Source: Legionella waltersii
GTDB taxonomy: Bacteria; Pseudomonadota; Gammaproteobacteria; Legionellales; Legionellaceae
DNA: 64,000 nt
Reading direction: 5' to 3'
Assembly (NCBI RefSeq): GCF_001468085.1
Contig: NZ_LNZB01000031.1
Coordinates: 72,857 to 136,856, forward strand
Part shown: piece after piece, positions 20,133 to 22,380 of the stretch
Position numbering within the stretch: the stretch's first letter is position 1
How the letters are laid out: each line of letters starts with the position of its first letter
The notes under the pieces: model-generated
What the model saw: only the letters and a program-made list of their open reading frames with translations
Databases searched by the model: none
Told to the model about the DNA's origin: nothing
Program-made: the position numbers and the translations under genes

Positions 20133-20348
20133 ATGGAATTATTGGATGCAGTGGAGTCATTGGTGAAAAATCCTCTCCTTGATACAGTGATTTTAGAGGA
20201 TTGTATTTTAAATAAAAGCTTGATTGAATCATATAAAAACTCAGATACCCATAAGATCAGGAAGTTAACCACAAATAAAAGGAACTTTTCGGATATGACA
20301 CATGTGATCCCGTATCCCGATATGACACATGTTTTTACACTGACCTAA
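20133..20348 (+). CDS. Putative split-borosin precursor peptide
   Basis: A 71-residue peptide gene with a strong GGAGG site at 20123-20127. The N-terminal 40 residues are helical and acidic/hydrophobic (LLDAVESLVKNPLLDTVI), like the binding domain that docks a borosin precursor on its methyltransferase. A basic linker (HKIRKLTTNKR) leads to a C-terminal tail of two nine-residue units, SDMTHVIPY and PDMTHVFTL, plus a final Thr. At DNA level a 14-base identical repeat (20292-20305 and 20319-20332) is 27 bases apart. The gene ends 11 bases before the methylase gene. It has no similarity I recognise outside this context; the precursor role is inferred from size, repeat and neighbours. Confidence 0.7.
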   Translation: MELLDAVESLVKNPLLDTVILEDCILNKSLIESYKNSDTHKIRKLTTNKRNFSDMTHVIPYPDMTHVFTLT

Positions 20349-20359
20349 TAGGGAGTTAA

Positions 20360-21130
20360 GTGAAAGTTTTAGCGTTAGTTGGTACTGGAATTAAAACAAT
20401 CGCTCATATTACAGAGGAAGCAAAAGGATATATATGTACTTGTGACAAGGTATTGTATTTAGTTAATGAACCCTTGCTAGAGCGTTATATTCATAAATTA
20501 GCGAAATTATCAGAGTCATTGGATGCAATCTACTTTAACTCTAACTCAAGAGAAAATGCTTATAAAAATGTGGCACAATTTATTTATAGAGAGATCGAAG
20601 ATGTAGACTCTCTATGTGTTGTTATATATGGCCATCCATGTGTATTTGCCACTCCTGGATTGCTTGCTTTCTCTGGGCTTAGTAATAACATTAAAACAGT
20701 AGTGTGTCCCGGTATTTCAGCTCAAGACTGTTTATATGCCGATCTTAGATTTGACCCTGCATCTGGAGGTATACAGTCATTTGATGCTACGGAATATCTT
20801 TTGTACGATAGATCAGTAGATACTTCTTCTCATGTAGTGGTTTACCAGATTTGTATGGTTGGAAATTTGGGGTTACCAACGAATACAGTCAATTTGGAAG
20901 CCATCAATTTTATTAAAAATAAATTAACTAAGCTCTATAAAAATGGAAAAAAGGCTATTATTTACGAAGCTGCTCTTTATCCTGGTACTTATCCAAAGAT
21001 AACTGAGTTTGAGTTAGAGCAACTTGATAGGCAAGAGTTAACAACATTATCTACTTTGTATATTCCTCCCGATGAAAATCTTCGAGTGCCGAGTTCTGAT
21101 GCATTAAGGTTATTAAATCAAATGGCATAG
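20360..21130 (+). CDS. Borosin-type peptide alpha-N-methyltransferase (tetrapyrrole methylase fold)
   Basis: A 256-residue protein starting with GTG (GGAG site upstream). The fold is that of SAM-dependent tetrapyrrole methylases: ALVGTGIKTIAHIT (residues 5-18), VVIYGHPCVFATPG (87-100) and VVCPGISAQDCLYADL (114-129). The subtype is that of borosin N-methyltransferases: the text QSFDATEYLL (139-148) is typical. Tyr58, Arg64, Tyr68 and Tyr90 have the same mutual spacing as the catalytic Tyr66, Arg72, Tyr76 and Tyr98 I recall for OphMA. The protein lacks the C-terminal fused peptide of fungal borosins, as expected for a bacterial split system. The likely reaction is N-methylation of backbone amides in the adjacent peptide. 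Tetrapyrrole biosynthesis is unlikely given the size and neighbours. Confidence 0.82.
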   Translation: MKVLALVGTGIKTIAHITEEAKGYICTCDKVLYLVNEPLLERYIHKLAKLSESLDAIYFNSNSRENAYKNVAQFIYREIEDVDSLCVVIYGHPCVFATPGLLAFSGLSNNIKTVVCPGISAQDCLYADLRFDPASGGIQSFDATEYLLYDRSVDTSSHVVVYQICMVGNLGLPTNTVNLEAINFIKNKLTKLYKNGKKAIIYEAALYPGTYPKITEFELEQLDRQELTTLSTLYIPPDENLRVPSSDALRLLNQMA

Positions 21131-21174
21131 GTTAAGTGGATGTATCTAATATTTATTTAAGGTGAGGGAGTACA

Positions 21175-22380
21175 ATGAGCTCAACAGTCAGCTCTTCTAA
21201 GGTAGGCTTTTCTTTTAGGGATTTACCAGTCGCTTGTAAATTGTTATTAGCTCTTTCTTTTATAGAAGCTATTGGAGGCGGCCTATCTTATCATATTGCG
21301 TATTTTTTTAGTGTAAGCACTAATTTTAATAAATTAAATATTGGTTTTTTAGGCTTTGCAATGGGGATTGGAGCCATTTTGGGCAGTATATGTGGTGGAT
21401 ACGTTACGGGCAAAGCACAAGCAAAGGATATCATAGGCACAAGTTTCTTACTCATAGGAGTAGCGTTTGTTATTTTAGCAAAAGTAAGTTCCTTTCATTT
21501 ATCTGTTGCCTTTGTATTTTTAATGGGATTTGGAATCAACTTGTTTATCACTTGCAGTAACTCATCTTTTTTGCAGATTTCAAGAAAGACAAATCACAGT
21601 TTAACGATTGCTCAATCTTACAAAAATGCACTAGAAAATACTGGTGGTATTGTGGCAATGGTATTAATAATGCTTTTAGCGCAAAATCATTTTAAATTAG
21701 CAATGATTTTGGTTGGCGTTACTTTAATAGTATTTTCAACCGTTATTTTTATAAAATTAGAAATCAGCAATGATGATGTAGTTGCAACAACCAGTAATAA
21801 GGAAGAGATTGAGACAATCTATAGCTCGCTCATTCCAATGTTATTTTCAGTATTTTGCATCGGTTTGACTTATGGGATACAAAAAACAGTACTAGGGATT
21901 CACTTAAACGAAACAATTGGAAGTTCTTTAGTTATTGGATTTTTTTTCGCAACTGATCCAATTTTAATTGCATTATTTCAAGTAAAATTATCAAAACGAA
22001 TTGAGGGTTTCAATAAACATGCAGTTGCTTGTATAGGCTGTATTTTATTAGGAGCATCAACCTTTTCTATGGGTTTGTCTACTACTATACTAGGAATGTT
22101 TTGTTCGCTATTAGTTTTTACTCTTGGTGAAATGTTATTTATGGCATATTCTGTTGCATTATGTCATCAATATGGAAGTTCTAATCACAGTGGCTTAGGA
22201 ATAGGGGCGTGGCGTAGTGCATATGCGTTAGGCATGATGATTGGTCCTCTCATATCAGGTATAGCGATGTATTATTTCAATGCCCAAAGTGCTTGGACAA
22301 TATCTTCTTTGCTTTGTTTCATGAGTGCTTTCTTAGTATTTAATTCTAAAAGAGAACGGCGGTTAGAGGCTGTTTATTGA
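21175..22380 (+). CDS. MFS transporter, likely exporter for the peptide locus
   Basis: A 401-residue protein with about 12 hydrophobic helices in two halves, separated by a cytoplasmic loop near residues 195-218. The N-terminal half has FAMGIGAILGSICGGYVTGKAQ, with the Gly-rich loop between helices 2 and 3. A later SGLGIGAWRSAYALGMMIGP is typical of the DHA1-like multidrug group. It starts 44 bases after the methylase with a GAGGGAG site, so it is probably in the same operon. Export of, or immunity to, the modified peptide is the simplest reading. The last 18 bases overlap the 3' end of the convergent gene. Confidence 0.8.
   Translation: MSSTVSSSKVGFSFRDLPVACKLLLALSFIEAIGGGLSYHIAYFFSVSTNFNKLNIGFLGFAMGIGAILGSICGGYVTGKAQAKDIIGTSFLLIGVAFVILAKVSSFHLSVAFVFLMGFGINLFITCSNSSFLQISRKTNHSLTIAQSYKNALENTGGIVAMVLIMLLAQNHFKLAMILVGVTLIVFSTVIFIKLEISNDDVVATTSNKEEIETIYSSLIPMLFSVFCIGLTYGIQKTVLGIHLNETIGSSLVIGFFFATDPILIALFQVKLSKRIEGFNKHAVACIGCILLGASTFSMGLSTTILGMFCSLLVFTLGEMLFMAYSVALCHQYGSSNHSGLGIGAWRSAYALGMMIGPLISGIAMYYFNAQSAWTISSLLCFMSAFLVFNSKRERRLEAVY

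Follow-up and report, generated by a model that had tools for sequence, protein, structure and literature searches.

The window, a 64,000-nucleotide stretch of the Legionella waltersii genome (contig NZ_LNZB01000031.1, positions 72,857 to 136,856), contains a small cassette of predicted split-borosin type on a conjugative element (Table 1). Three open reading frames (ORFs) on one strand encode a 71-residue predicted precursor peptide, a methyltransferase and a transporter of the major facilitator superfamily (MFS). They follow one another at 11 and 44 bases, and each start is preceded by a purine-rich, GGAGG-like stretch. The original prediction had described a peptide, a separate methylase and a neighbouring exporter-type gene, all with good ribosome sites, and the ORF coordinates and the stretches before the starts agree with it on each point. 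Its range, 20133..22380, holds these three genes but omits ORF435, the convergent fourth gene, and the end of the module near 24201. All genes of the cassette are under purifying selection. Between the window and nine orthologues the ratio of nonsynonymous to synonymous change (dN/dS) spanned 0.15-0.29 in the methylase, 0.09-0.11 in the MFS gene and 0.14-0.50 in the peptide, with one of the nine peptide pairs saturated; it was 0.09-0.16 for ORF435 (8 pairs) and 0.22-0.35 for an 84-residue ORF beyond it (6 pairs).

Table 1. Features of the cassette and of its surroundings, in window coordinates.
Feature	Position	Strand	Remarks
Precursor peptide (predicted)	20133..20348	+	ATG start, 71 aa
Peptide tail, residues 51-71, two DMTHV units (predicted core)	20283..20345	+	14-bp repeat
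Methyltransferase, OphMA/SonM family	20360..21130	+	GTG start, 256 aa; PF00590
MFS transporter, likely exporter	21175..22380	+	ATG start, 401 aa; PF07690 1.6e-23
ORF435, family-less conserved partner, convergent with the MFS gene	22363..23670	-	435 aa
84-aa ORF, possible helix-turn-helix protein, in the conserved block	23863..24117	+	kept in relatives
Borosin cassette block, common to relatives bearing a different integrase	19935..24201		blastn
133-aa ORF travelling with the integrase (xis-like by position only)	24330..24731	+	68-92% identity beside the same integrase in relatives
Tyrosine integrase	24581..25708	+	PF00589 7.1e-17
Attachment-site repeat in 3' part of tRNA-Met gene	25797..25846		copy at G000:C31:7157-7206
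Type IV secretion / conjugation genes	404..11633	-	T4SS-DNA_transf, TrbL, TrbI, VirB8, CagE_TrbE_VirB, T2SSE

The family of the enzyme, in which PF00590 spans residues 4-162, was examined by several comparisons. In a phmmer search of PDB sequences (E<=10) the 25 best of the 28 matches were borosin enzymes, with dbOphM at 4.4e-34, OphMA/dbOphMA-type entries ranging from 4e-34 to 3e-32 and SonM at 2.6e-29; the other three had E values of 0.66 or more. The MroMA entries among these matches we take to be borosins. In the phmmer alignment Y58, R64, Y68 and Y90 stand without gaps opposite Y66, R72, Y76 and Y98 of dbOphM, and all 63 Legionella copies carry these four active-site residues unchanged, as do 62 of 62 when one copy read through a stop is set aside. 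In SonM the matching set, Y58, R67, Y71 and Y93, has been probed by mutation (PMC8429565), the match to the Legionella quartet being by position and not from an alignment. Scores against the NCBIfam corrin models were 16.9 and 13.3 bits, with cut-offs of 274 and 163.25, and the YabN model gave 54.8 with a cut-off of 525. In a 26-row tree the RsmI-like protein of the same genome was set apart by a very long branch (about 9.7 changes per column) and did not group with the window enzyme, its exact placement being unsure; the clade supports given below come from a separate, larger tree. Judged by its sequence, the 256-residue protein belongs to the OphMA/SonM peptide backbone N-methyltransferases and not to the corrin or RsmI methylases, and the PDB matches and aligned quartet bear out the borosin-type call made earlier.

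Methyltransferases of this kind were found by sequence search in 33 of 45 Legionella genomes. The 66 match rows correspond to 65 places, the last row being the second piece of one remnant, and 63 loci (numbered with the prefix L) were analysed after L099 and L100 were dropped as sets of fragments under 130 aa. The broken or fragmentary copies at L096, L098, L099 and L100 point to loss as well as gain. The window peptide recurs at 10 places in nine of the 45 genomes (weakest E 6e-25), and these are the same 10 places that hold a close methylase (74% identity or more); this recurrence and the dN/dS values speak against a chance set of ORFs. An ORF of 45-72 residues lies directly upstream of the methyltransferase at 62 of the 63 loci, the exception being the broken copy L096. 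Such ORFs were sought at 38-110 aa, ending from 60 bases before to 30 bases after the enzyme start, and the best was chosen by ATG and ribosome site; the weight of this result rests on the likeness of the ORFs, the rule having been used without a shuffle null. At 57 of 63 loci the strand of the enzyme also carries an MFS-family ORF no more than 3 kb away; from the 40 MFS matches in the window's own genome, about 9% would be expected by chance. Among the nine relatives of the window's MFS protein, six have 92-93% identity and L086 has 77%; the gene is in two pieces in L084 and truncated by a contig end in L085.

The predicted cores of these upstream ORFs are of a few types, and the types follow the enzymes. 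Type I, with DM(T/S)HV twice, comprises 10 loci including the window, its tail pattern being kept in all 10; type II (FADMSRVV) has 7 loci, type III (DRTTIF) 10, type IV (NKIV, once or twice) 28 and type V (CET) 3, and four loci have singleton cores. In the enzyme tree types I, II, III and IV each form one clade with 99-100% bootstrap, the type II clade consisting of six rows with a truncated copy left out; with a plasmid row included, type V does not form a single clade. The L. waltersii genome has a second borosin locus, of type IV, off the element (L051, G000:C60:347219-347926).

The window core is a duplication: the same 14 bp stand without change at 20292 and again, in direct orientation, 27 bases on at 20319; type II has a single unit at the position of the first window unit. 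In a 16-row alignment of precursors of types I-III and two singletons, the common part was the N-terminal stretch together with core residue D54, M1 being invariant and E8 and L10 present in 90% or more. Profile comparison of the precursors by hhalign (raw pairwise E) joined I with II (3.5e-5), I with L041 (2.3e-6) and IV with L074 (1e-6); the link of I with IV (4.6e-4) covered just the first 18 residues. The remaining pairs, I-III (0.054) and III-IV (0.44) among them, had no direct link by this method, and comparison with three plasmid precursors of the Bradyrhizobium kind gave weak hhalign matches. Other multi-unit designs were seen. At L074:2639-2821 a precursor-like ORF carries a QPNxxAI unit three times in its tail, and on the Serratia liquefaciens plasmid p2-125 (L132) an ORF of near-identical tandem units (MNLAKVIGGFDSTK...), perhaps a multi-core precursor, lies upstream of a distant borosin-like methyltransferase, which is followed by a 2-oxoglutarate-Fe(II) oxygenase gene and an MFS gene.

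ORF435 has no Pfam or NCBIfam match, none of 16 diverse relatives has a Pfam match at E<=0.1, and the better of its structural models (pLDDT 75, pTM 0.74) found no PDB fold at E<=0.001. A relative of ORF435 lies within 3 kb of 55 of the 63 methyltransferase loci, on the opposite strand in 54; counted by coordinates, it is found within 5 kb at 55 of the 65 places, convergent and downstream in 54 of these. On this distribution ORF435 belongs to the set as its fourth conserved gene. Across the order, matches occur in 55 of 143 genomes, all in the window's family, in 9 of 33 genera, and residues invariant in the 16 diverse members include W12, E100, H389, D408, G428 and C429. Eighty-one copies were counted from 82 rows, the last row being a second piece, and 54 of the 81 are near a methyltransferase. 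Of the 27 copies elsewhere, 12 were examined. Five are in YcaO clusters (L111, L112, L120, L121, L122), some with TfuA, ThiF, ThiS and ATP-grasp and partly on plasmid-like contigs, which may represent a second uncharacterised peptide-type pathway. One (L115:4745-9798) is beside PanD (aspartate decarboxylase), a Ddl-type ATP-grasp, an Asp/Glu racemase and an MFS gene, a cluster that looks like a small-peptide pathway. Four adjoin an MFS gene (L114, L116, L117, L118), L119 is near a carrier-protein-like ORF and L113 is without telling neighbours. Neighbouring genes were tested against Pfam at L112, L115 and L121 (YcaO, ThiF, ThiS, TfuA, ATP-grasp) and for the MFS gene of L114, and the others were read by eye. 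Because ORF435 is common to different peptide chemistries and is often beside a pump, it is read as a probable late-stage factor and not as a part of the methylation step. It might instead be a sensor or regulator of the cluster, a role considered less likely than a part in maturation, release or self-protection.

The cassette is carried by a conjugative element of about 91.5 kb inserted in a tRNA-Met gene. This gene (25799-25875, minus strand) lies beside rpoD, and a 50-bp copy of its end, 98% identical, is found on the same contig. Six of six proteins tested from 404-11633 matched Pfam families of type IV secretion. The integrase, secretion genes, tRNA-Met gene and flanking repeat place the cassette on an integrative and conjugative element, as the original prediction had it. 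The 133-residue ORF by the integrase has no Pfam match.

Comparison with relatives suggested that cassette and integrase are separable. The cassette block, 19935-24201, is about 89-91% identical by blastn over its whole length to six relatives (L078-L083), which bear a different integrase, 27-28% identical in protein to that of the window. In six type I relatives the 84-residue ORF is 85-87% identical, its helix-turn-helix matches staying below the Pfam cut-off. The match to L084 reaches only 23787, and L085 (at a contig end) and L086 match at 76-78% from about 20120. A stretch of about 950 bp present in relatives is absent from the window at about 23787; in L078 and L079 it holds a 199-residue ORF that by eye reads like a helix-turn-helix and S24-type repressor. 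The block that follows (24204-25935) shows 72-93% identity to genomes carrying a type IV cassette in the corresponding slot next to rpoD. In 11 of the 12 loci where rpoD can be seen, this match begins at 24204-24213; in L095 it begins at 24349. The borosin block and the integrase block of the window meet within 3 bases. The other integrase occupies a tRNA-Lys/Lys/Arg site, where its neighbour is of type I in five relatives (L078, L079, L081, L082, L083) and of type IV in L072; no tRNA was found at L080. Since both integrase blocks are seen with both type I and type IV, cassette and integrase have evidently been exchanged, in the window at about 24202. L082 also has a 46-bp copy (97.8%, at L082:2245-2290) of the tRNA-Met attachment sequence on the far side of its type I cassette, whose integrase is at tRNA-Arg, and this copy is probably a trace of an earlier element.

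Within 4.5 kb, 29 of the 63 loci have an integrase-like ORF, compared with about 2.6% expected (463 PF00589 matches in 165 Mb), although many of the 29 share one site by descent and are not 29 events. None was found near the 10 type III or the 3 type V loci. On a plasmid of L. israelensis, an MFS gene, precursor, methylase and convergent gene lie beside tra genes, the convergent protein being 26% identical to ORF435.

Together these observations make it likely that the window holds a split-borosin-type cassette on a conjugative element, whose peptide is backbone-methylated by the adjacent enzyme and exported by the MFS protein, with ORF435 likely acting in maturation, release or self-protection. 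The N-terminal helix of the peptide would dock on the enzyme dimer and the tail units SDMTHVIP and PDMTHVFT would pass the S-adenosylmethionine site. Methyl groups would be added at hydrophobic residues after DM(T/S)H, the likeliest sites, V58/I59 and V67/F68, being predicted from the hydrophobic pair that follows each unit. Cleavage would then free the tail for export by the pump. A role in competition or signalling is the most plausible one for the product, given its place as mobile cargo and a core that varies by type while its partners stay; it might have an antibacterial or anti-protist effect.

Several points weigh against this proposal. Methylation, export and product are predictions from the genes. 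The five-helix leader domain described for SonA (PMC8429565) was not detected, as a SonA/LigA-type leader, in the window peptide or in the 16-row Legionella profile by sequence and profile searches; a Bradyrhizobium plasmid precursor did match SonA, at about 7e-6. No dedicated peptidase was recognised within the cassette, and the MFS protein has no PDB sequence match at E<=0.01. The MFS gene is missing at 6 of 63 loci, and those of type IV are distant relatives lying beyond ORF435. ORF435 is missing at 8 of 63 loci (L038, L045, L057, L061, L074, L085, L096, L098), of which L045 and L085 have a contig end within 1 kb and L096 and L098 have broken methylases.

An intracellular product, or one with a metal-binding or signalling role, the cassette being a mere hitchhiker on mobile elements, is considered unlikely. 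Mobile islands gather many cargo genes, and 34 of 63 loci have no integrase-like ORF within 4.5 kb, types III and V having none; however, the block has been swapped whole from one integration site to another, a plasmid carries it as well, and a transporter-family gene is near most loci. More doubtful still is the idea that the borosin-family enzyme acts on some other peptide or protein and not on the upstream peptide. The undetected SonA-type leader and the lack of a shuffle null would favour it, but an upstream ORF accompanies the enzyme at all loci save one, the ORF types follow the enzyme clades and the peptide is under purifying selection. Finally, an ordinary tetrapyrrole methylase beside an unrelated small ORF is taken as refuted: although the enzyme carries PF00590 as such methylases do, and several database names read methylase or uroporphyrinogen III methylase, the clustering with corrin, uroporphyrinogen or RsmI methylases that the original prediction had named as its refutation was not seen, whether in the 28 PDB matches, the NCBIfam scores or the 26-row tree.

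The preferred split-borosin reading can be compared with known systems. In split borosins the enzyme and the precursor are separately encoded (PMC8429565), and judged by sequence the Legionella cassette is one of these. It resembles SonM/SonA of Shewanella oneidensis (type IV of the borosin types), in which an alpha-N-methyltransferase of about 260 residues stands beside a 71-residue precursor (PMC8429565), and the active-site quartet fits by position. It differs in that the Legionella precursor has a duplicated core and no SonA/LigA-type leader detected by sequence, and in that the Legionella set adds an MFS gene and ORF435 and is found on mobile elements. The fungal OphMA/dbOphMA enzymes are the closest solved relatives in sequence, but there enzyme and core are one protein, whereas in Legionella they are two genes. 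A prolyl oligopeptidase of OphP type is absent from the Legionella cassette, whereas the Bradyrhizobium plasmid locus has one in convergent position. The classification of borosins comprises 11 types (0-X) and a proposed type XI, and bacterial split borosins of types V-X likewise have separate methyltransferase and precursor (PMC11395268). It may be that one of types V-X already includes the Legionella precursors. In 2022 over 1600 split borosin pathways were reportedly found, and the Legionella ones may be among these. As far as the literature searched shows, four points are new: the genus-wide spread, the agreement between core types and enzyme clades, the association with ORF435 and the exchange of cassettes.

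Backbone N-methylation is described as making peptides more stable and better at crossing membranes (PMC8429565, PMC11395268). A genus of amoeba parasites would hold an overlooked chemical trait, with clusters in most of the genomes searched and partly on moving elements; no description of the trait in Legionella was found in the literature searched. The natural core series DMTHV, DMSRVV, DRTTIF, NKIV and CETHVV, with matched enzymes, would form a panel for studying what the enzymes accept, and ORF435 would offer a handle on the late steps of bacterial borosins. A broader scheme, put forward tentatively and with less assurance, is that Legionellaceae have a plug-in peptide factory, in which a constant ORF435 and MFS pump handle the peptide whatever its chemistry, and front ends (borosin methylase with precursor, YcaO/TfuA/ThiF, or ATP-grasp) replace one another in slots next to the integrase on conjugative elements and plasmids. 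This would make ORF435 a new chemistry-independent maturation or immunity factor, and docking would use one N-terminal helix in place of a five-helix leader.

Some other genes of the element were noted. An ORF near its left end (L123) resembles a relaxase by eye, and the cargo at 16290-19194 includes a resolvase piece and an ORF that by eye is GIY-YIG-like (18880-19194). In the same region, 18033-18674 encodes a weak DUF1780-like protein, under the cut-off.
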